Source of the DNA: a virus
Length of the DNA stretch: 30,907 nucleotides
IMG/VR virus record: IMGVR_UViG_3300034190_000819
Coordinates: 1 to 30,907 of that record
Reading direction: 5' to 3' (one strand)
The position numbers and the translations under genes are program-made. This document shows positions 3,259-29,565 of the stretch, piece by piece (the first letter of the stretch is position 1; each line of letters begins with the position of its first letter). The notes under the pieces are model-generated. The model saw nothing but the letters and a program-made list of their open reading frames with translations, did no database searches and was not told the DNA's origin.

Positions 3259-4599
3259 ATGCCAAACGAAGAAGACATGAAAGTAAAGTATGCAGTAGGC
3301 TCCGTAGCTCAAAGGGCTGTAGAAGGTTCAGACTCCTTATTAGAAGCTGCTAAGGCAGACGTTAACGAAATTAATCGTGGCCCTGCGGAAGAGACTTTAC
3401 TTTCTACACCTGATCGTGGCGCTCCGCAGATCCGGCCTGAAGCAAGCCCAGAAGAAAGCAAAGATGTTGAAGAAGAGCTATCAATCCCTGTGCCAGTGTT
3501 AGCCTCTATTTGGTTTTCAGAAAATACTGAACCGCCTGTAGAAGAAGAGGTGGACGCTTTTGAAGATGCCGTGACTGATGCTGTAACTGAAAACGAGCCG
3601 GTTTTTAAATTCAAAGATAAAATATATAGTATAGATAAAGCATCTCTAATGGAAGTCACTGAAGAGCTTGACCAAGAGAGGAAGGGTTTCTTTTTTGGAT
3701 CACTAGCTAAACGAGTAAAAAAACTATCTAAGGGTAGAAAAAGCAAGAAGGGCGGTCGTGGACTAGGTGGTGCTATTTCCCGTTCAATAGAAAGATTAAG
3801 AGGAAGACAACAAAAAGCTTCTCCTGCCCCAACTAAAGTAATAAACATGGGCAATGTAGTAGCTACAAAATTCCCGAGGTTTTCTTCGAAAGAAGTTAAA
3901 AAACCTATGGGTGGTTTCTTTTCCGCTATCGGTAAGATGGTAAATAAACAAGCGGGAAGCGGCGTTAAAAAACAGGTAAAGAAAGGCGCACCCAGTAAGC
4001 GTAACAAGCCATTTAAAAACTCTAGAGGTTCTAAATTTTATAGAGGTTTTAAAGGTCGTTTTGGTTTTGAAGAAGGTGGTATGCCTGTAGATACATACCC
4101 CAATATTGCTCCTGAAGACATGGCAGAAGTAAAAGCGTCACAACTTCCTGATAGTGAGATGGAAGCTAAGTACGAAGAGTTTATTCTTGGCGAGGCTTTA
4201 AGTCCAATAGATCAAGATTACCTAATGGATTCGTTAGGTGAAGATGCAAAATTAAGTACCATCTTCGATAGAGTGATGGATGTAGCAACAGAATTTTCTG
4301 GTGCGGGTGCAGTAGAAGGCATCGGTACTGGAGTATCAGATTCGATACCGGCTAGGTTATCGGACGGTGAATTTGTTTTCACCGCAAAGGCCGTTGAAGC
4401 AATAGGCGTAGAAAACCTCCAAAGAATGATGGACGACGCTGAACGAAGCTTTGACGAACGTGATGGAAAGGCATATGGAGGCGCAATGAGTAGTAGCGCC
4501 GAAGACGACGAAAGTATAGACTATAATTCGAGGGGCGACAATATCAGCACTCAATTAAACGCCATACTTTTAGAAGCTAATCCAATGTCACACCGATAG
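3259..4599 (+). CDS. Virion-associated protein with basic core and SDSIPARLSDGEFV motif
   Basis: 446 aa, function unknown. Three zones are visible: an acidic N-terminal part (about 1-140), a Lys/Arg/Gly-rich middle (about 150-270, with KRVKKLSKGRKSKKGGRG), and a C-terminal part holding SDSIPARLSDGEFV from residue 360. The last motif recurs in many phage structural proteins, including tape measures, and its role is not known to me. A FEEGGMP segment separates the basic and C-terminal zones, like the GG linkers of the 2356 aa protein. Start: AGAGGA about 7 nt before the ATG. Position between portal and scaffold suggests an internal capsid or DNA-associated head protein; the basic core would suit DNA contact. 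That role is inferred. Confidence 0.7.
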   Translation: MPNEEDMKVKYAVGSVAQRAVEGSDSLLEAAKADVNEINRGPAEETLLSTPDRGAPQIRPEASPEESKDVEEELSIPVPVLASIWFSENTEPPVEEEVDAFEDAVTDAVTENEPVFKFKDKIYSIDKASLMEVTEELDQERKGFFFGSLAKRVKKLSKGRKSKKGGRGLGGAISRSIERLRGRQQKASPAPTKVINMGNVVATKFPRFSSKEVKKPMGGFFSAIGKMVNKQAGSGVKKQVKKGAPSKRNKPFKNSRGSKFYRGFKGRFGFEEGGMPVDTYPNIAPEDMAEVKASQLPDSEMEAKYEEFILGEALSPIDQDYLMDSLGEDAKLSTIFDRVMDVATEFSGAGAVEGIGTGVSDSIPARLSDGEFVFTAKAVEAIGVENLQRMMDDAERSFDERDGKAYGGAMSSSAEDDESIDYNSRGDNISTQLNAILLEANPMSHR

Positions 4600-18236: not shown

Positions 18237-20258
18237 ATGTCTATTCAAGATCTGGGTGACTCTCTTTTAAGCAATGTCCGTGATAGAAAAGATGCACAAT
18301 ATGAACAACAGAAAAAAGATCAGAAAGATGCGCAACGCACCGCTGATCGAAAAGCACGTCAGCAAAAATTAATTGGGTATGGTTTAAAGACACTTATAGA
18401 TGTAGGCAACTCAGTTGTTAGCAGCAAGACACAAGATTTTTTAACTACTGAGCAACAGTTAGCAAAAACATCTAAAATTAAAAGTGCTGATCAGTTCTCG
18501 CAAGACTATGCTCGTGTGGACAATGAAATTAAAGCGTTTTCAGGGACAGCTGAAGATTACTTTGCAGTCAAAGCAGCGCCAAAAGTACAAGCAATTATTA
18601 ATAGTGAATATGCGACAGGCTATAACGAAGCAGAAAAAGCCGCCGCAGCCGCAGCTCTATCTATGAACTATGGTGCTTCTCTTTATGAGGCGCATGAAGC
18701 ACAGAGAGCAAATTATGACAAACTGGTTTCGGGAGACATTGACTTTTCAGCTTACAAAAAAGAACTAGTAGCTCTTCAACCTAAAACAATGGCGCAAGCT
18801 TTAAAAACAAAAGCAGCGGGTTTGTTCAGTAGAGGAGAAAACACAGGGGTTCAAAGTGCTCGAATGATGGGCATGTTAGATACAGTAGACAGCTTATTAG
18901 ATGATGATGGTGATGGAAAAATCACAGCACAAGAACAGGAAAGTGCGTTTTATAACATATACCGTAACTCTAAAAATAATTCTCTAACGGCTTTAAATAT
19001 AACTCAAACTTTACAAGATCAAGGTATTGAAATATCAAAAGCAACACCAAAACTAGGTGCTCCTGTATCTATGTATGTACCAAACGATTTTGGAGATCCT
19101 GTTCAAACATCTGTTCAAGAAGTAACTTTAAATGGTCAGCATGTGAGCTGGATAAACGTCGCTACAGGTTCACAAATAACCAAAGCAAGCCCAAAGGCAT
19201 CGTGGCAGAGATCTTCTGATGCTAAGGATACGGACGTGCAAGCAATCCAAACTAGAGTTAATTTATTAATTGATGATGATGTAGACGCTAAAGAAGGTTT
19301 TCAATCACGAATTAAGTCTATTGTAGGTGACGCAAAAGGCCCAGCCTTAAAAGAAAAACAAGACGCTGCGGCAAGAGCTGTTTTTGTACCTGTGTTTTTC
19401 ACAGCTAAAAAGCTTATGAGTGATTATGGTGTAGGTAACGAAGCCGCCATGCAGATAGCTACGCACATGCACTCTTTAAATTATCAGTGGATTAAATCTA
19501 ATGATGGGTTTATGGAAGAAGGTGAGACGGATCTAAGTACTTCTGTCATGCCGGATGAGGTATGGAATTCTCAACTAGCTTTAGCAGCTATTCACGACAT
19601 AGAGACTAGTCAGAAATGGGCTGGTCGAGTACAGCTTGAAGACACGGACTCTACTCTTGGGTTAAGAAGTAGAATTTTTGCCACAAGCACAGAAGGCGCT
19701 GACAAACTATCTATTCCTCAAATAAACTCTTTGTGGGGAGATGTAGAAGATGGCGGGTCTGGAGGCTTTTTAGGTCAGGCAAAGTTTAAAGGAAGCGCAT
19801 TATATAAAAACTTGCAACAGCAGGGCAGAAAAACTCAAGCCGAAACAAAAAGAAACGCTGAAACACCAGAGCCTTTAGAAGAAGAGAAGTCTGTAAGTTC
19901 AATTAAAGTACCTTATAGTGAAGCAGAAATGGATGCTGTCTTTAAACGGAAATATAACACTAATCAAAAGAATAAAAAACTAGCTTTAAATATGCCGTTG
20001 GCAAGAAAACAAAAGCTGTTTGAAAACTTAAATGGTAGTGTAGTGGCAGACCAGATTCGAGGTAGAGAGCAGACAGAACAACAAATCCGTAAGTTGGGAT
20101 CAGCTATAGCAGGCGCTTGGACTAAAGGCGTAGAAAGACAGCAGGCAATACTAGATCTAGACGAAGACGATAAACTTATGTACAGCACACTAAAAGATAG
20201 AGACAGTCAAAACGCCTTTCTAGTTAATGTATACGGAGAAACTTATAATGGTCGATAG
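18237..20258 (+). CDS. Internal virion protein candidate with EF-hand loop
   Basis: 673 aa, helical, soluble. N-terminal charged coiled coil (about 13-45, RDRKDAQYEQQKKDQKDAQR), an Ala-rich helical region (about 120-150), and a canonical EF-hand calcium loop DDDGDGKITAQE at residues 222-233: acidic residues at loop positions 1, 3 and 5, Gly at 6, Ile at 8 and Glu at 12, flanked by helices. Only one loop was found. The C-terminal part is polar and helical. RBS AAAGGA about 9 nt upstream; its 3' end overlaps the start of the giant gene by 11 nt, so the two are translated together. Likely part of the ejected core; calcium may steady it or act as a trigger. That is inference. Confidence 0.66.
   Translation: MSIQDLGDSLLSNVRDRKDAQYEQQKKDQKDAQRTADRKARQQKLIGYGLKTLIDVGNSVVSSKTQDFLTTEQQLAKTSKIKSADQFSQDYARVDNEIKAFSGTAEDYFAVKAAPKVQAIINSEYATGYNEAEKAAAAAALSMNYGASLYEAHEAQRANYDKLVSGDIDFSAYKKELVALQPKTMAQALKTKAAGLFSRGENTGVQSARMMGMLDTVDSLLDDDGDGKITAQEQESAFYNIYRNSKNNSLTALNITQTLQDQGIEISKATPKLGAPVSMYVPNDFGDPVQTSVQEVTLNGQHVSWINVATGSQITKASPKASWQRSSDAKDTDVQAIQTRVNLLIDDDVDAKEGFQSRIKSIVGDAKGPALKEKQDAAARAVFVPVFFTAKKLMSDYGVGNEAAMQIATHMHSLNYQWIKSNDGFMEEGETDLSTSVMPDEVWNSQLALAAIHDIETSQKWAGRVQLEDTDSTLGLRSRIFATSTEGADKLSIPQINSLWGDVEDGGSGGFLGQAKFKGSALYKNLQQQGRKTQAETKRNAETPEPLEEEKSVSSIKVPYSEAEMDAVFKRKYNTNQKNKKLALNMPLARKQKLFENLNGSVVADQIRGREQTEQQIRKLGSAIAGAWTKGVERQQAILDLDEDDKLMYSTLKDRDSQNAFLVNVYGETYNGR
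20235..20238 (+). promoter_or_regulatory. RBS that fixes the start of the giant gene
   Basis: GGAG lies 9 nt before the ATG at 20248. The ATG at 20227 in the same frame has no such signal, so the shorter start is preferred. Confidence 0.65.
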
Positions 20259-23200
20259 TGTTGCAACAAGAATGCAAGAGTACTACGGTAAACTAGATAA
20301 AGGTGAAGACGTATCTGATTTTTCAACAGTTAATAATCAAGAAGAGTTAGACTTGTTAAATGATACAGCTTCAGCTCCAGCAACTGTAACGTCTTTTGAA
20401 AACAATCCTGACGTGATTAAAAACTACGAGCTAGTTACTGATTACTTAGGCAACAATCAAACTGTAATGAGTGGCTTATTAGACTCTGCAAGCTTGATTG
20501 ACGGAAGTAAAGCTGAGTTCATGCGTGATGAGTTTAGAATATCTACTCTTGTTAATAGGGCAGTTACTTTGGGCGATGCGCCTAAAGAAGTTCTAAACGC
20601 TTATAATGATTTAAAGGCTGCTTGGGATAGCTCCGAGCTTACAGGCTTTGGTGAGTGGGCAGGAGCCGTTAAAGATTACGGTATAGATTTAGTAGCTAAC
20701 TATGAAACTATTCCTATGGTTGCGTCTGCAATGTTTAGTGGTGGCACAAGCGTGGCTGCTAATGCAGGTATACGAAAAGGACTACACAGCGCATTGAGCA
20801 AAGGTGTGGCTGCTGCGAGTAATAACCCCGCCAAGTTTGGTGCAGCCTATGGTGGAGTATTTACAGGCGCAGCTGATTTAGCATCTCAAGAATTAAATAT
20901 TAGTTTGGAAAATCAAGAAGAAGTTAACTATGCACAAACGGCCGCTTCTACTGTCCTCGGTGCTGGTTTAGGTGCGGGTATTAACTATGGGTTATCTAGA
21001 GTCGGAAGCAAGATTCGCAGTAGACGACTTGAAAGAGATACTGAAATTGACAACGGCCCAATTGTTTCAGAGTCTAAAGGGCTTGCATTATTTGACGAAG
21101 GTCTGGAGGGAGAATATATTCCCGCTTCTGGTGAAGCAATCTTAGACAACGTAAGTGGTCTTCTTTCTGGAAGAACTGCAAAGGTTGTTAATGATGTAGA
21201 TGAAACAGGTTTTGAAGATATTATTGATGACTTTGTAAGTGATATTGGGGGCGGTCAGTCTACAAGAGAAGAAGTAGAAGACATTGTTTTAGGAGCTTTA
21301 AAGTCTGGAGAGACTGGAGACAAGATAAAAAATAAAGTAGCTTTCGGTTTATGGAAAGCAGCTACTGAGTTAGTGGGTACAGCTTTTGGCGGTAAAGCTT
21401 CAGGTGTTTTAACAAGCTTTGTGCCGTATTCTAAAACCGCAGAAACTTTAAGAAAGCGTTTATCACATGATTTTGGAATCACTACAACAGGAAAACAAAA
21501 AGAAAGAGTAGCGATGGATTTTTCTGAGGTTGCGGCTACGCTTACAGGAGGTTTTAGAGAAAGGTTTAAGGCAGCTGTTGAGCCTATTGCACTCAACTCT
21601 GTAAAGGGTAATCTTGAGGACGATGTTAACGCAGCATTAAATAGAGCTATCCGTGGGCAAATGTCGCCGGATAAAGATATAAATGTAGCTGCTGTTAAAA
21701 TACAAAACCTTTTTAAAGATATTGGTGAGCAGTTATTTGAAGGTGGTTTAATCGACAAGAAAGTAGAAAACTATATTCCTCGTATGTGGAATCGTAAAGC
21801 TATTGAAAATAACCAAAATGATTTTGCTAAGCTTTTAATTGAAGAGGGCGAAGCAGCAGATATTGTAGAAGCAGAAAGAATTATAAAAGAGATGCTCGAT
21901 ATTGAAAATCAATTATCGGGCGGTACAGCAGGTCATTTCTTTTCAGCAAAACGTAAATTTACAGACATCTCTAACGAGGCGAAACTTGTAGATTACTTAG
22001 AGGATGATCTTTTAAGCGTTATTGAAACTTATAATTTCCAAGCTGGCAAATCATTAGCTAAGATTAAAGTCCTTAACTCTAGAGGCGAAGCTGACTTTAT
22101 TAAAAAGTGGATAGAGCCTATTGCAAAAGAGATGAAAGCTGCTGGACAGGCGCTAACTAAAAAAGATAAAGAAAGAATTAGAGAGCTTTATAGGTTAACT
22201 ACAGGGGAAAACTTAAAACGTTTTTCTGACACTGTACAAACAGGGGCTGACGGATACCAACTAGCTACTCGAACGGCTCTACTGCCTTTAGCTACTGTTG
22301 GTAGTTTAACAGAGGTACTTATAAATGTAGGTAAAGCTGGTGTTATAAACTCTGCAAAAGGTTTTGCTCAAGCTTCTGAGGTTGCGTATAGAACTATTAC
22401 AAACGACCTCCACACAGAGCTTAGAACTAAACATGGGTTAACTGCTAATGAAGTGTGGCGTGAACTACAATCGTTTGGTAAAGCTATAGATCAGTCTGTA
22501 GGTCAAATAGGCAATCGACTAGGTGGTGATGATCTTATTCACGAAGGAATGCAAAAAGCCAGCAATAAATTTTTCAGATTAAACCTGCTAGACCAGTGGA
22601 CAAAGTTTGTTCAAATAACTTCTTATGCAACAGGTAAGAATTTGATTGAAGAAAACTTAAAAGCTCTTGCAGCTCATGGTAATAAAGCACAAACTTCTCG
22701 TACCGAATCAATGATTGGGAAGTTAAATGAACTCGATGTAGATTATAAAGCTGGTGTAGCTTGGATTAATAACGGTTCAAAAAGAACCGATTCTTTTTAC
22801 ACAGACTTTAAAAGAGGAGCTTCAAGATACACTAACGGCGTTATCTTACAACCTACGGGAATGTCTAACTTAAAGCCAATGCTTTACTCAGATCCAAAAA
22901 CAACTATCTTGTTTCAGTTGTTAGGTTATCCAGCAGCGTTTTCAAATACTGTTCTTAAAGGAGCAGCAAAGGCTGTTATAAAAGATCCGAAAGCTAATGC
23001 AGCAAACATTCTTGGTGCTGGCCTTTCTATGACAGCCGCTGCTCGGTTTATAAACTGGGTACGTTCTCGTGGTGAAAGTGAATCTATGTATGTGCCTGAG
23101 TCAGAAAAAAATCTAAAAGCTATTGCACGTTGGGGTGGTAACGGTTTATTTTTAGACACTTTTACACGGGCAAAAAGCGCTGCTAAGTATGGCGATAATA

Positions 23201-26200
23201 TCATGGGCTATGCTACTATGCCTTTCGGCCCTATAACAGGCGAAGCACTTAACCTGTTCCAAGGAAAGCCCGCTCAAGTTTTAGGGAATAAAGTTCCTTT
23301 CATGGGGGCAGGTAATGTTTTCCTAGGCCCAGACGTAATGCGTAAATATAGAAAAAGTTTAAAGAATATAGATAGAAGTTTAAACGAAAAGTTTGTACCA
23401 GACTTCCAACCTAATATTGCACGGGATCTTCTTTCTAAGGGCGGTACTGTAGAAATAGATCGTGCTTCTGCTGAGCCAGATGAAAGAGTAAATAAACTAA
23501 CTGGTGTCCCGTATAATGTTGAAGCTGGGACAGCGTTTATGGATGAACTCGACGAAGGACGAACCGAGCGTTTTGGTTTTAATGTTGGCGGTAAGATAGC
23601 GCAGAAACTATCTACCCCTCTAGCGGAAGTAATCAACAAGCACACAGACGGTTTATTCAGTGCGTCTAAAGTAAATAATGTTGCTTCTGAAATTGAAGAG
23701 GCGGTAACACTTAATGCTAATTTAAAAGCTTTACCAGAAGATGAGTATTATTCTGATACTATGGATGATATTGCGTTAAATCAGATGCTTGTAGATGACG
23801 TAGACGTTGAAGAATATCTTACAGTAGCGGCCCGTTCGGTTTTTGACGACAATGATGCCAATGATGAATTGATGGGCTTAGCTGAAGAGGTTGATCCTGA
23901 TTACTCTTTATATGACACGATTAATCACATGCTTAACCCTTTAAAAGATAAGCGTGATAACTTAGTACGTTCTGAATATAAAGATGTAGAAGACTCAGAA
24001 GCTTTAAAAAACTTAACTAGCTTCTTAGGTACGCATATAACTACGCTGCCTTTTTATACTTCAGTTACTCAAGAAGGGGCGAAGAAGTCGGCGAAGCAGC
24101 ACGTAGCAAAACTTTTAGAGGAAGGAGATGACGGTTTATTTTCTTTTATAAAAGACACAGCGGCTACAACGCCTGCTCAACGAAATGATAATCTAAATCT
24201 CAAGCCTAGCGCCAACACACAAAAAGCTATTGAAGAGTTTGTAGTTGAATCAGAAGTTAATGTGCCTGTATATCGTGGTGTATCTAGCTTTGTCAATACT
24301 GATTATGATATTGCCTACACGTTCCCACGAGAAATGGGCGTACATTATGGTAATGAAGGACAAGCAAACTATCAAATTTTAAAAGAGCTTAATCCAAACA
24401 GAGCTATAGATGAATTTTCATTAGCTGCTACAGGGGGCCGCAGTGCAAACAAAAGAAAAATGTTTGAGGCTTTTCAAGAAGAGATGGCTGATAGCGGTAC
24501 AAGCTTAAACGCTAGTAGTGAAGAAGGTATGGCACCTTTAACAGTACTTAAAGGTTACTTAAATATTAAAAACCCTTTATTTATTAATCAGGATATGGGT
24601 TCTTGGTCAGCTGATAATCTTTTAACAGTTGAGTATTTCCCAATGAAAGATGCTTTAGAAGAAAGTCTAAAGCGTTCCTTAACTAAAAAGGAGTTGGGGA
24701 AAATAGATGCCTTATCTGACAGGGCTTTACTTATTTCAGATGAATATATAGTCGCAGAGAACACCGATAAAAAAGTAGGTGTCGCTGTGAACCAAATTCA
24801 AAATGAATTGAAGCGGGTGTTAGAACACGCTAAATTAACTAAAGATCTACAAGGCTTTATAAAAGATTTAGGTTTTGATGGTATTAAATATAAGAATGCT
24901 GTTGAGCCACCTTTCAGAGGTGAGCAACTGTACTCCTATATTGCGTTTGAACCCACTCAATTTAAAACTGTAAATGCTTCTAAGTTTGATGTAAACGATC
25001 CGAGAGACATGTACGCTAAAGGCGGGTCAATAGTTGCGAGAGCGTTAGGTATTCCAGATGAAGCTTTGTCTTGGGCTAAAAGCCAGCGAGATCGTTTCCC
25101 TAAGAGTGAAAGCTATGACGGGATCGGAGACGCAGCCGCACACTTAGCGTTAGGTTTTATTACTAAGAAATCTGAGAACCCTAAAGCAGCTTTATTTGCA
25201 GCTAACGCTAGAGAGTTTGTAACTCTTGATCGTGTTGGTGGTAAAATGGATATACATAATAACAATCTAGGAGCCTCTATAGACGCACAGAATTATGCGG
25301 AAGCCGAGAAAGTAATAGACACTTTAATTTCTGATCGTAAGGCTGTATTTATGACTCCTTCTGAAAGTCGTGCAAGGCGTGGATATAACCATGGCGGCAG
25401 CTCTAGTTTTTATGCAGTCTCTAAAGGGGATACACTATCTAAGATAGCTGAGGATAACGAAACAACTGTAGAATCTCTAATGGCGGCTAATGATATTGAG
25501 GACGAAACTTTAATTTATGTCAATCAAAAACTTGCGCTACCTGTAGAAAAAGAGTTTAAAGAAAATAGAGCATTAGAAGCTATAAAGTCTATGCGTGTAC
25601 GTGGGGGTCGTCAAGACAATAAAGTTTTTTCTGCGCTTAAAAAACTTAACAGTTTTAGAAACAGTCAGGGTTTAAGCTCTAAATCTGTAGAGTCTTTGAA
25701 AAGAATAAAAGAATCAATAACTCCTGAAGACCGTAAGCCTGTTAATATTGGTGGTAAGATAGCTCAAAAACTAGCACCTAAAATGACTGAAGGTTTTTAT
25801 AGTGCTTTAGAAAAAGCATCTTTAAACTTAACTCGTAAAGAAGGTACAGGACAAGGTTTCTTAAACGATCTCAAGAAGGGCGAAAAGGTAACGGAAGATG
25901 AGCTATACTTCACTGGCGTTATTGATAAGCTTAAAGACGTTAAGAAAATCTCTAAGGAAGAAGTCCAAGATGTTGTAGCTAACAGTCGAGTAGGTGTTGA
26001 AACTAAAAAGGGAAGTCCTGATTATGTAGACCCTGACGATGGCGCTTATGACTTTGACACAGCTTATGATGATTTGGCTGATGGCGATGTTTGGCAAGTA
26101 GCTGAGCTAGAGCAGAGCCGTCCTGATGATTATGAAAAATATATATCGGGAGAAATGAGCTTTGACGAAGCTGAAAAGTTTGAGTTAGATGCCAAACGTT

Positions 26201-27318
26201 TTGTTAATAGTTCATTATCTAAAGATGAATCCGACGCAAGTGGAGCATTTGATTTTAGTACAGAGTATGAGGATTATACATTAGCAAGTAAAGCTGGAGA
26301 GAGACCACAGAACTACCGAGAGATTTTAATCCAAGCACCTAAAACAGATAAACTAAAAGACGTTGAACATTCGAATGAACATTTTGAATCAGCACCTAAT
26401 TATAAAAGCACTTTAGCCCACATACGTTTATCTGATGGCGTGTCTGGTGAAAAGATGGATCAACCCACTTTGATTATTGAAGAGATACAATCTGATTATC
26501 ATCAACAGGGCAGTAAATATGGTTATCGAAAAGACGGTGTTACTTATACTGAAGAAGACATAATCAAGACAGTAGAAGATTATAAAGAACCGTTTTATAA
26601 TAAGTTTAAACAAGAGTTATCTAAAACATCTGACGATGTAGAATACGTACAAGAAGAAGCTAGTGACTACACGATTCAAGCTCTTGAAGTGATGGAGCAG
26701 TTTCTTGCATCAGGAGTTACTAAACAAGAAGTTGAGTTATTCTCTAAAAAGTTTTTAAATTATAAAATTAAAGATCTAAAATTAGCGGATGACCTCGCCT
26801 CCTATGTATCTAAATTTGATGTAAACTACATGGAGAATCATAAGAAGGCTCAAGGTGTTAACATTAAACGGGCGGAGCTAGAAAAAGAATTCGTAAAAGA
26901 ATTATCCGAGGAAAATGTTAATGTAGGACGGGCGTATAAAAAGTATCTTAATGACGACATTGATACTGAGACTGTTCCTGAAGCACCGTTTAAAAAGACT
27001 TGGCATAAACTAGCAATCAATAAAGCTTTAATAGAAGCTGCCGAAGAGGGCAACACACGTATAGCTCTTACTACAGGACAGCAGCAACAAGAGCGGTATG
27101 GCACAGCTGGTGGTAAACTAGGCGAGAAGTACGACACAGCTTATCTTTCCTATCTTAAAAAGTTCGGTAAGAAGTATGGCGTTAAACCACAACTGGAGGC
27201 AGTTGAAATGGGCGACGCAACTTTCGACTTAAACGTTTTAGAGATTACCCCTGAGATGAAAGAAGATATATTAAAAGGTCTACCACAATTTGCTGAAGGA
27301 GGTTTAGTTGATGAGTGA
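20248..27318 (+). CDS. Giant multidomain virion (polyvalent) protein, probably ejected
   Basis: 2356 aa from the RBS-backed ATG at 20248 (7 residues shorter than the longest frame). N-terminal half resembles large phage internal proteins: a Gly/Ala hydrophobic region with TAASTVLGAGLGAGINYGL (about 231-249), NYIPRMWNRKAI (508-519) and KFFRLNLLDQWTKFVQ (774-789). Then: a GG linker at 1112-1116; an ADP-ribosyltransferase-like module, about 1339-1585 (VYRG with R1343; GFDGIKYKN; SYIAFEPTQFK); linker YAKGG at 1589; a segment with MDIHNNNLG (1667-1675); linker GYNHGG at 1712; a LysM domain at about 1722-1765; linker VNIGGKIAQKL at 1832; and a polyvalent-type C-terminal domain with EEIQSD (2078-2083) and ALTTGQQQQERYG, ending FAEGG. 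Activities are predicted, not shown. Largest gene of the window, just before lysis genes. Confidence 0.8.
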   Translation: MVDSVATRMQEYYGKLDKGEDVSDFSTVNNQEELDLLNDTASAPATVTSFENNPDVIKNYELVTDYLGNNQTVMSGLLDSASLIDGSKAEFMRDEFRISTLVNRAVTLGDAPKEVLNAYNDLKAAWDSSELTGFGEWAGAVKDYGIDLVANYETIPMVASAMFSGGTSVAANAGIRKGLHSALSKGVAAASNNPAKFGAAYGGVFTGAADLASQELNISLENQEEVNYAQTAASTVLGAGLGAGINYGLSRVGSKIRSRRLERDTEIDNGPIVSESKGLALFDEGLEGEYIPASGEAILDNVSGLLSGRTAKVVNDVDETGFEDIIDDFVSDIGGGQSTREEVEDIVLGALKSGETGDKIKNKVAFGLWKAATELVGTAFGGKASGVLTSFVPYSKTAETLRKRLSHDFGITTTGKQKERVAMDFSEVAATLTGGFRERFKAAVEPIALNSVKGNLEDDVNAALNRAIRGQMSPDKDINVAAVKIQNLFKDIGEQLFEGGLIDKKVENYIPRMWNRKAIENNQNDFAKLLIEEGEAADIVEAERIIKEMLDIENQLSGGTAGHFFSAKRKFTDISNEAKLVDYLEDDLLSVIETYNFQAGKSLAKIKVLNSRGEADFIKKWIEPIAKEMKAAGQALTKKDKERIRELYRLTTGENLKRFSDTVQTGADGYQLATRTALLPLATVGSLTEVLINVGKAGVINSAKGFAQASEVAYRTITNDLHTELRTKHGLTANEVWRELQSFGKAIDQSVGQIGNRLGGDDLIHEGMQKASNKFFRLNLLDQWTKFVQITSYATGKNLIEENLKALAAHGNKAQTSRTESMIGKLNELDVDYKAGVAWINNGSKRTDSFYTDFKRGASRYTNGVILQPTGMSNLKPMLYSDPKTTILFQLLGYPAAFSNTVLKGAAKAVIKDPKANAANILGAGLSMTAAARFINWVRSRGESESMYVPESEKNLKAIARWGGNGLFLDTFTRAKSAAKYGDNIMGYATMPFGPITGEALNLFQGKPAQVLGNKVPFMGAGNVFLGPDVMRKYRKSLKNIDRSLNEKFVPDFQPNIARDLLSKGGTVEIDRASAEPDERVNKLTGVPYNVEAGTAFMDELDEGRTERFGFNVGGKIAQKLSTPLAEVINKHTDGLFSASKVNNVASEIEEAVTLNANLKALPEDEYYSDTMDDIALNQMLVDDVDVEEYLTVAARSVFDDNDANDELMGLAEEVDPDYSLYDTINHMLNPLKDKRDNLVRSEYKDVEDSEALKNLTSFLGTHITTLPFYTSVTQEGAKKSAKQHVAKLLEEGDDGLFSFIKDTAATTPAQRNDNLNLKPSANTQKAIEEFVVESEVNVPVYRGVSSFVNTDYDIAYTFPREMGVHYGNEGQANYQILKELNPNRAIDEFSLAATGGRSANKRKMFEAFQEEMADSGTSLNASSEEGMAPLTVLKGYLNIKNPLFINQDMGSWSADNLLTVEYFPMKDALEESLKRSLTKKELGKIDALSDRALLISDEYIVAENTDKKVGVAVNQIQNELKRVLEHAKLTKDLQGFIKDLGFDGIKYKNAVEPPFRGEQLYSYIAFEPTQFKTVNASKFDVNDPRDMYAKGGSIVARALGIPDEALSWAKSQRDRFPKSESYDGIGDAAAHLALGFITKKSENPKAALFAANAREFVTLDRVGGKMDIHNNNLGASIDAQNYAEAEKVIDTLISDRKAVFMTPSESRARRGYNHGGSSSFYAVSKGDTLSKIAEDNETTVESLMAANDIEDETLIYVNQKLALPVEKEFKENRALEAIKSMRVRGGRQDNKVFSALKKLNSFRNSQGLSSKSVESLKRIKESITPEDRKPVNIGGKIAQKLAPKMTEGFYSALEKASLNLTRKEGTGQGFLNDLKKGEKVTEDELYFTGVIDKLKDVKKISKEEVQDVVANSRVGVETKKGSPDYVDPDDGAYDFDTAYDDLADGDVWQVAELEQSRPDDYEKYISGEMSFDEAEKFELDAKRFVNSSLSKDESDASGAFDFSTEYEDYTLASKAGERPQNYREILIQAPKTDKLKDVEHSNEHFESAPNYKSTLAHIRLSDGVSGEKMDQPTLIIEEIQSDYHQQGSKYGYRKDGVTYTEEDIIKTVEDYKEPFYNKFKQELSKTSDDVEYVQEEASDYTIQALEVMEQFLASGVTKQEVELFSKKFLNYKIKDLKLADDLASYVSKFDVNYMENHKKAQGVNIKRAELEKEFVKELSEENVNVGRAYKKYLNDDIDTETVPEAPFKKTWHKLAINKALIEAAEEGNTRIALTTGQQQQERYGTAGGKLGEKYDTAYLSYLKKFGKKYGVKPQLEAVEMGDATFDLNVLEITPEMKEDILKGLPQFAEGGLVDE
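27296..27303 (+). promoter_or_regulatory. Perfect RBS that fixes the endolysin start
   Basis: AAGGAGGT, fully complementary to the 16S rRNA 3' end, lies 7 nt before the ATG at 27311 and inside the end of the giant gene. It favours ATG 27311 over the in-frame TTG at 27308. Confidence 0.75.
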
Positions 27319-27661
27319 ATATAAATATTTTAGCACAGATGAGTTTGCGTGTCAAGAGACGGGGGAAAATGAAATTAGTGTAGAGTTTATACACAAACTA
27401 GATAAGCTTCGAGAGGCTTGTGGCTTTCCATTTACGATTACATCAGGCTATCGTAGCCCTCAGCATAGCATTGAGCAGCGTAAAGCTAAGGCAGGCACCC
27501 ACGCACAAGGAATCGCAGCAGACATTAAAGTCTCTGGGGGTGCGCAGCGCATGAAGATTGTGGAGGAAGCAATAGCGTTAGGCTTCAAAGGCGTTGGAGT
27601 TGCTAAGACATTTGTTCATGTTGACATCAGGGAAACCACCCCTGTCTTGTGGTGTTATTAA
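27311..27661 (+). CDS. Endolysin, peptidase M15 family (L,D/D,D-peptidase type)
   Basis: 116 aa, a single-domain zinc peptidase that cuts peptidoglycan cross-bridges or stem peptides at lysis. Motifs: FTITSGYRSP (41-50), THAQGIAADI with zinc ligands H64 and D71, and FVHVDIR with H103 and D105, ending in PVLW. This is the full compact length of the M15_3-type family. No signal peptide or binding domain, so it needs the holin made next. It overlaps the giant gene by 8 nt and uses the strong AAGGAGGT site. High confidence for family; bond specificity is not visible. Confidence 0.9.
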   Translation: MSEYKYFSTDEFACQETGENEISVEFIHKLDKLREACGFPFTITSGYRSPQHSIEQRKAKAGTHAQGIAADIKVSGGAQRMKIVEEAIALGFKGVGVAKTFVHVDIRETTPVLWCY

Positions 27662-28535: not shown

Positions 28536-28563
28536 GCACACAGGAGCGTAAAGCATGAGCACA
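28526..28563 (+). repeat. 15-nt direct repeat around two start codons
   Basis: TAAAGCATGAGCACA occurs at 28526-28540 and again at 28549-28563, 23 nt apart. The first ATG opens an 8-codon frame (MSTQERKA) that ends in TGA overlapping the second ATG at 28555. The AGGAG at 28542-28546 lies between them and serves the second start. Confidence 0.85.
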
Positions 28564-28830
28564 GCTAAGAAAAAAACTAAAGAGATTATACTCCCATGTA
28601 TATTTGGAAGATTTAGGATACAAGCTCAAGCAATAGTTCTATATCCTTTTGTGTTTTATAAAAGCCAAGAAGCTAAAGATAAATATAGGGCGCATGAAAT
28701 GATCCATGTTGAACAAGTACAACGGTTAGGTTGGTTTAAATTTTATTCCTCTTATCTATGGGAATCGTATAAGGTTGGTTACTGGGAAAACAAATATGAA
28801 ATAGAAGCTAGAGAAAGGTCAGGAGTTTAA
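28555..28830 (+). CDS. Mini metallopeptidase-like protein (HEMIH)
   Basis: 91 aa. A short basic start (KKKTKE) is followed by a strand pair and the HEMIH motif at residues 47-51 (HExxH, zinc and catalytic Glu), then a helix, RLGWFKFYSSYL, and ENKYEIEARE at 78-87, where E82 or E84 can be the third ligand, in the manner of minimal gluzincins. All expected key residues are present, so activity is plausible. RBS AGGAG 8 nt upstream. It stands among late accessory genes after the holin. It could process a virion protein, modify the envelope or act on host protein; substrate unknown. Confidence 0.68.
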   Translation: MSTAKKKTKEIILPCIFGRFRIQAQAIVLYPFVFYKSQEAKDKYRAHEMIHVEQVQRLGWFKFYSSYLWESYKVGYWENKYEIEARERSGV

Positions 28831-29021: not shown

Positions 29022-29275
29022 TGCCAATGAAGAAGCCACAAAAGTCTTTAAAGAAATGGACTAAAGAGAACTGGGGTACTAAGTCTGGTAAGCCAAGTAC
29101 CCAAGGTAAGGCGGCTACAGGTGAAAGGTATTTACCTAAGAAGGCTAGAGAGTCTTTAAGTTCTAAAGAGTATGCTGCAACAACAGCTAAGAAACGTAAA
29201 GATACTAAGGCAGGTAAGCAGCACAGCAAGCAACCTGCAAAGATTGTAAAGAAAACAGCGAGGCATAGAAAATAA
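29021..29275 (+). CDS. Small basic protein, SLKKWTKENW type
   Basis: 84 aa, about one third Lys/Arg. Visible parts: KSLKKWTKENWGTKSGKPS (8-26), ERYLPKKARESLSSKEYAAT (35-54), then KKRKDTKAGKQHSKQPAKIV. I recall this set of motifs (SxKKW, YLP.KA..LS, KQxxKQP) from short proteins of marine phages, possibly of the DUF5872 kind. No acidic patch or cysteine pair. Coupled by TAATG at both ends. Likely DNA or RNA binding or packed in the virion, by composition only. Confidence 0.7.
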   Translation: MPMKKPQKSLKKWTKENWGTKSGKPSTQGKAATGERYLPKKARESLSSKEYAATTAKKRKDTKAGKQHSKQPAKIVKKTARHRK

Positions 29276-29565
29276 TGGCTAAAGAAAAAGATTCTAAGTT
29301 AAAGAGCGCAGGAGTTTCAGGATATAATAAACCTAAAAAAACGCCTAGCCACAAAACTAAATCACATGTGGTTGTAGCTAAGGTAGGGGATCAGACGAAG
29401 ACTATACGCTTTGGAGAACAAGGAGCGAGTACGGCGGGCAAGCCAAAAGCCGGAGAGTCTGCCCGTATGAAAGCAAAACGTGCCAGCTTTAAAGCTAGAC
29501 ACGCTAAGAACATTGCAAAAGGAAAGATGTCTGCGGCTTACTGGGCAGATAAAGCGAAATGGTAA
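29275..29565 (+). CDS. Small basic protein, TIRFGEQGA / KGKMSAAYWADK type
   Basis: 96 aa, basic. A strand segment SHVVVAKVGDQTKTIRFGEQ (30-49) is followed by a Lys/Arg/Ala helix ending SAAYWADKAKW (86-96). This ending is typical of a small protein family recurring in marine phages, without known function. The start is coupled by TAATG to the previous gene and the stop overlaps the next start in the same manner. Third of the basic set; shared strand and tight coupling suggest they work together or in the same amounts. Confidence 0.7.
   Translation: MAKEKDSKLKSAGVSGYNKPKKTPSHKTKSHVVVAKVGDQTKTIRFGEQGASTAGKPKAGESARMKAKRASFKARHAKNIAKGKMSAAYWADKAKW

Follow-up and report, generated by a model that had tools for sequence, protein, structure and literature searches.

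A giant, probably capsid-carried protein of an HMO-2011-type phage joins an ejection-type half to enzyme-like modules at GG-marked seams

Polyvalent proteins, as set out by Iyer et al. 2017 (PMC5512222), are single polypeptides that contain several dissimilar domains, most of them enzyme-like, and whose genes lie among those for the virion; ADP-ribosyltransferases (ARTs) are the commonest protein modifier in them, and lysozymes and GNATs are also reported. PMC12633501 and PMC5512222 further describe the N4 virion RNA polymerase, a giant ejected multidomain protein of about 3,500 residues, and T4 Alt, an ART that is packaged in the head and injected. Here we analyze a protein of 2,356 residues (the giant) encoded by the viral IMG/VR record IMGVR_UViG_3300034190_000819; the window is the complete record of 30,907 bases. 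Like the polyvalent proteins, the giant combines domains whose predicted activities differ (ART-like, DUF6973-related, LysM, and GNAT-fold) and is encoded among virion (late) genes. It differs from them in that these domains are joined to a long ejection-type half, its ART site pattern is different, its GNAT-like domain lies outside Pfam models, and it lacks the HExxH metallopeptidase; moreover, in the accessible portions of PMC5512222 we came across no account of GG-marked seams. The N4 and T4 proteins, likened to the giant by published description, have domains different from its own. Both the polyvalent kind and the family to which the giant belongs, phrog_7348, are already known. As an example of a little-tested class of proteins thought to be injected with phage DNA, the giant is unusually rich.

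Two further proteins are close comparators. The first is 9k3a_B, the full-length 1,717-residue protein of cyanophage A-4L, a large ejectosome protein solved in the virion that, judged by eye, carries an ART-type motif near its C terminus (LYHGT ... GTYFS). In contrast to the giant, its ART motif is of the H-Y type and no LysM, MDxHNN, or GNAT-like module was detected in it; no sequence match was found between the ejection parts of the two proteins. The second is gp40 of Pelagibacter phage HTVC115P, which occupies the same gene position, has a related ejection domain (E 5e-7) and GG motifs, and carries a YxDY/DxYDFN module that is seen in relatives of the giant, but in which no ART, MDxHNN, LysM, or GNAT-like module was detected.

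The giant's open reading frame (ORF) lies on the plus strand, as does the next gene, and is open throughout 20248-27318, as the first-pass annotation of this DNA had stated; ATG 20248 is preferred over the in-frame ATG at 20227 because GGAG (20235-20238) lies 9 nt ahead of the former. It is the final gene of the virion block: terminase, portal, capsid, and tail genes lie before it and an endolysin gene after it. On sequence grounds, the source virus is an HMO-2011-type phage, because the portal protein is 48-62% identical to those of members of this group, namely pelagiphages HTVC115P, 103P, and 104P, roseophages CRP-1 and others, and HMO-2011 itself (62% for HTVC115P); a comparison within the contig also shows that the virion gene order agrees with that of HTVC115P and HMO-2011. 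In the sea, phages of the HMO-2011 type are one of the dominant groups of viruses (PMC9038755).

We consider it probable that the giant is a polyvalent ejection protein of this phage that is carried in the capsid, helps to breach the wall, and goes on to modify host targets. In such a scheme the N-terminal ~1,100 residues would place the protein in the capsid with other internal virion proteins and help to build the ejection channel, LysM (in relatives, a lysozyme beside or replacing it) would hold or cut peptidoglycan on entry, and the ART-like, MDxHNN, and GNAT-like modules would reach the periplasm or cytoplasm to modify host targets early in infection. The first-pass annotation had proposed a similar fusion, with two N-terminal motifs followed by ART-like, MDxHNN, LysM, and polyvalent-type C-terminal modules. 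NYIPRMW occurs at residue 508 and KFFRLNLLDQWTKFVQ inside the conserved core, which accounts for both motifs; the four modules occur in the proposed order (1341, 1667, 1722-1765, and 2078). They are not chance matches, because relatives of the ART module are encoded in 105 viral stretches (by scan), relatives of the C-terminal domain are encoded in at least 367, and two full-length homologues (L004 and L007; L numbers denote our loci) have the same module order plus one extra module.

The ejection-type (internal virion) domain spans residues 1-1060 (20248..23427) and includes a conserved core, residues 464-905 (21637-22962); hydropathy analysis reveals several Gly/Ala-rich hydrophobic stretches in it. 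The giant matches phrog_7348 over residues 46-1600 (E=0) and phrog_6958, annotated "virion structural protein," at E 7e-18. The ejection part (residues 1-1110) is common to about 40 viral ORFs, and an alignment of 33 homologues of the domain contains 44 invariant columns. A profile of these homologues matches Slicky01 (E 1e-44), a Maricaulis metagenome-assembled genome (E 5e-189), and HTVC115P gp40, so that the cultured phages Slicky01 and HTVC115P are distant relatives of the ejection part. Given this position, family label, set of hydrophobic stretches, and group of relatives, residues 1-1110 probably constitute an ejection-type protein. Its tail, residues 1065-1107 (23440..23568), consists of a GG followed by an EPDERxxKxTGxPYN segment, and the GG precedes PDERxxKxTGxPY in all 56 ORFs compared, duplicate loci counted.

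The ART-like module comprises residues 1320-1590 (24205..25017) and contains VYRG at residue 1341 and the conserved residues R1343, H1366, D1544, Y1548, N1550, and E1553. R1343 is located on strand 1, H1366 on strand 2, and D1544 just ahead of strand 5. In the 50-row alignment of the module, counting rows with a letter at each position, the arginine is kept in 47/47, the histidine in 46/48, and the aspartic acid in 48/48. The site thus reads R-H-D, unlike the H-Y-D active site of the Tox-ART-HYD2 clade and of published polyvalent ARTs (PMC5512222); as read from the aligned relatives, the R-H-D pattern is new. The giant does not match Pfam ART-PolyVal (PF18760, curated cutoff 31.2 bits), and its relatives reach at most 20.4 bits (L116). 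The link to known ARTs comes instead from hhalign, which aligns the module at 97.6% with a domain of L012 that itself scores 64.8 bits against ART-PolyVal, the arginine of the module being aligned with the L012 histidine, and from structure. An AlphaFold2 (AF2) model of the ART and MDxHNN stretch (predicted local distance difference test score, pLDDT, 86) had no significant Foldseek match. In the VIA comparison, three rows span the whole ART domain, with modest Z values: 9k3a_B from the cyanophage A4 pre-ejectosome (Z 6.3, root-mean-square deviation [rmsd] 5.3, 144 aligned), the toxin MbcT (Z 4.6, rmsd 4.7, 126 aligned), and the anti-CRISPR protein AcrIF11, 6kyf (Z 4.4, rmsd 4.9, 125 aligned), the last two weak if taken alone. 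We take MbcT and AcrIF11 to be ART-fold enzymes. PDB sequence searches with the ART, C-terminal, and N-terminal profiles gave nothing meaningful.

The C-terminal domain, residues 1837-2349 (25756..27294), has no match in Pfam. It contains EEIQSD at residue 2078, and R2060 and EExQSD (2078-2083) are invariant across the 61 sequences of the A3 alignment. In an AF2 model (pLDDT 80), this domain, widespread in phages, takes the GNAT acetyltransferase fold, an assignment that is new: the top 50 VIA rows are all GNATs, the best being Elp3 (8asw_C; Z 9.6, rmsd 3.0 Å, 108 aligned), while Foldseek by itself is weak (E 0.54). The strand is followed by EExQSDxHQxGxxxGY, which does not exactly match the acetyl-CoA loop R/Q-x-x-G-x-G/A that follows strand 4 in GNATs, and next to it a long helical insertion, 28-219 residues among relatives, separates the EExQSD strand from the PFKxxW helix. 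The assignment supplies a testable function for a domain that is found in hundreds of phage contigs and lies outside Pfam.

The effector-like modules might alternatively be structural, with ART and GNAT folds that have lost their catalytic function and instead pack the capsid core, bind DNA, or form part of the channel. The change of H to R in the ART site and the unusual acetyl-CoA loop, broken by an insertion, are in keeping with such a role, as is the finding that 12 of 60 ORFs consist of the ejection part and ART alone, some of these being cut by a contig end. Yet the R, H, and D of the ART-like module are kept in essentially all sequences despite 20-40% identity, and so are the R and EExQSD of the GNAT-like domain. 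Because these key residues were kept while the rest diverged to that level, an active site is a better fit than packing, and we regard a purely structural role as unlikely.

Between the two enzyme-like domains lie the MDxHNN module and LysM. The MDxHNN module is helical, spans residues 1596-1715 (25033..25392), and contains MDIHNN at residue 1667. It is related to DUF6973 (PF22322): the giant scores 14.8 bits (E 0.021), short of the curated 27 bits, and relatives come closer, all under the cutoff (E 2.1e-5 with 24.5 bits in L166, 1.2e-4 in L151, and 5.5e-4), while an alignment with bacterial DUF6973 shows that DAxxH, an E, and MDxxNNxxG are shared. This link to DUF6973, which we draw from these motifs, is new, and we found no mention of DUF6973 in the literature searched. 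Bacterial proteins carry the domain behind LysM, in one case with SH3 as well (L183 and L185), or at the end of sequences that by eye resemble Rhs/YD tips (L184 and L188); a wall-directed or toxin-type activity is therefore plausible for the module. The VIA rows WLS (Z 8.0 and 7.5) that it returned are helical matches and are not trusted as a fold assignment. We also considered the module as a drop-in for lysozymes; the two never co-occur (0 shared; 8 and 11 of 60 ORFs), but such a result has an 18% likelihood by chance. By eye, tail modules with NHAxLSYxHG ... NNxYGF in L009 (residues 1778-1944) and L126 (residues 2011-2176) look like very diverged versions of MDxHNN.

LysM, a peptidoglycan-binding domain, occupies residues 1722-1765 (25411..25542) and matches PF01476 at E 2.3e-10 (40.7 bits versus a curated 20.9). 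It is the sole known wall domain of the giant, in which no peptidoglycan hydrolase domain was recognized. This bears on the PHROG annotation of phrog_7348, a family of 2,564 positions labeled "endolysin" that includes the ejection part, ART, the EExQSD domain, LysM, and the YxDY/DxYDFN module, with the MDxHNN module beyond the matched profile range. Taken literally, the label would make the giant a late-made lysis protein acting from inside, which would agree with LysM in the giant and with the lysozyme modules, SLT-like or pesticin-type, of its relatives. We find this highly improbable: no known hydrolase domain was found in the giant, its 2,356 residues with a conserved ejection-type half in a virion block are unlike the build of an endolysin, and in most relatives the adjoining gene encodes an M15 endolysin. 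In the window that gene (27311..27661), the next after the giant, matches Peptidase_M15_3 at E 2.7e-13 and is likely the true lysis enzyme. The phrog_7348 label is probably wrong and derived from LysM.

The modules are separated by seams that often read [FY]xxGG. In the giant, GG occurs at residue 1114 (FGFNVGGKIAQKL; 23587..23592), at residue 1592 after ART (25021..25026; G1592 is present in 46/46 rows with a letter), at residue 1716 on the MDxHNN/LysM boundary (25393..25398), at residue 1835 (NIGGKIAQKLAP; 25750..25755), a near copy of the 1114 seam with GGKIAQKL at both, and at the C terminus (FAEGGLVDE*; 27298..27303), where it is also C-terminal in L004, L005, L006, L007, and L107. The low-confidence linkers of the ART and MDxHNN model coincide with GG seams (positions 270-277 of the model are residues 1585-1592, and the 1716 seam also falls in a model linker). 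Across the relatives, GG lies no more than 15 residues from 49 of 76 module edges, compared with 18% of random positions (p 5e-19, uncorrected for kinship). Most of the edges with GG follow ART, MDxHNN, or the GNAT-like domain, and edges after LysM are mostly without it. Translated Shine-Dalgarno sites do not account for the pattern: Shine-Dalgarno-like DNA occurs at 12/92 seam GGs versus 100/637 others, which is no enrichment, and the sole such seam in the window is the C-terminal one (GAAGGAGGT, ahead of the endolysin ATG). Because, in addition, the seam codons vary across relatives, the signal acts on the protein level.

On a fixed ejection-ART base, 60 nonredundant ART-bearing ORFs, some cut by contig ends, show 25 module orders. 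ART may have no module after it, or it may precede LysM, MDxHNN, a lysozyme of the SLT-like or pesticin type (Pfam E 8e-24 and 2e-36 for pesticin, just E 0.011 for SLT), the GNAT-like domain, or a YxDY/DxYDFN module. The last of these, YxDY ... DxYDFN, was seen after LysM or ART in L007 (residues 1876-2030), L121, L159, and HTVC115P gp40 (residues 1437-1584), and a TMFI-type module (TMxIxGxxxxGKEYLxPxYDPxT) stands behind a GG seam in L166 and L116.

In ten loci the ejection and ART parts are adjacent separate genes that are split at or near a seam. Seven are broken at the GG1114 position (L116, L124, L125, L138, L151, L159, and L162); here the ejection gene stops just past the EPDERxxKxTGxPYN segment, ending after DERIDKMTGxPYNxQAG..., and the second gene starts at the KIAQKL equivalent. 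In L148 the second gene starts just ahead of GG1065, and in L174 and L175 the break is slightly further upstream. This seam pattern with natural gene fission is, as read from the compared loci, new, and the seams may be protein-level joints where modules are added, lost, or split into genes. It also qualifies the proposal of the first-pass annotation: the modular architecture holds, as the stretches that were modeled fold with confidence into distinct domains that have conserved residues of an enzyme-like kind and are joined by linkers at GG seams, and do not form a single continuous structural fold, but the several activities need not be delivered in one polypeptide, since in sister phages the ejection and effector parts are two proteins.

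The seams might serve as flexible hinges while the protein threads through the tail, or as cleavage sites. In the latter case the giant would be a polyprotein, cut at GG in the capsid or cell into separate mature proteins, which would refine an ejection role and not oppose it. The GG enrichment at module edges, the constraint at the protein level that the varying codons point to, the separate genes of sister phages, and the fusion behind GG, in L151, of a protein that is free-standing elsewhere all speak for cleavage. Against it, GG persists a few residues from the C terminus in proteins that end with a module, for which a hinge or fusion scar is an equally good explanation, and the N4 virion RNA polymerase is packaged unprocessed (PMC5512222). 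Furthermore, no candidate protease was found. HExxH is absent from the giant, and the zincin-like 91-residue ORF at 28555-28830, with HEMIHVEQ, was rejected as a seam protease since a clear relative lies near just one other giant (L111). Processing at the seams is hence doubtful in our estimation.

Several points weigh against a capsid-carried, enzymatically active giant: the ART site carries an arginine in place of the histidine of published polyvalent ARTs and the giant misses the Pfam ART-PolyVal model, a textbook acetyl-CoA loop is missing from the GNAT-like domain, the N-terminal profile matched no solved ejection protein in the PDB sequence search, and we found no virion proteomics in the literature for this family or for HMO-2011-type phages. 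Nevertheless, a virion protein is in keeping with the gene position, with the relatives and, by analogy, with the precedent of the A-4L ejectosome; injection, catalysis, and any cleavage at GG are inferred. A bolder version, which we hold with little confidence, is an injected polyprotein-like string in which a GNAT-fold acyltransferase, an R-H-D ADP-ribosyltransferase, and a DUF6973-type toxin would act separately by virtue of [FY]xxGG joints at which phages exchange modules; the acyltransferase would then represent an unrecognized, widespread phage family. If injected, the giant names candidate activities, namely ADP-ribosylation, acyl transfer, and wall attack, and shows how such a kit may evolve by module swaps at a recognizable joint.

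Three other proteins of the window or its relatives are of note. A small Lys-rich basic protein (29275-29565; ending RxSFKARHxKNIxKGKMSAAYWAxKxKW) has a gene of its own close to the giant in most relatives, and in L151 (7416-10304) it forms the C-terminal tail, behind GG, of an ART-LysM-YDFN-MDxHNN protein. A 446-residue protein encoded between portal and scaffold (3259-4599) carries RFGFEEGGMPVD, much like the GG seams of the giant, and also contains a stretch of ~45 residues that is common to many tape-measure proteins (SDSIPARLSDGEFV). Finally, in the tail region of the cultured relative HTVC115P, gp46 (L180:14511-14960) is annotated as a toxin-activating lysine-acyltransferase.
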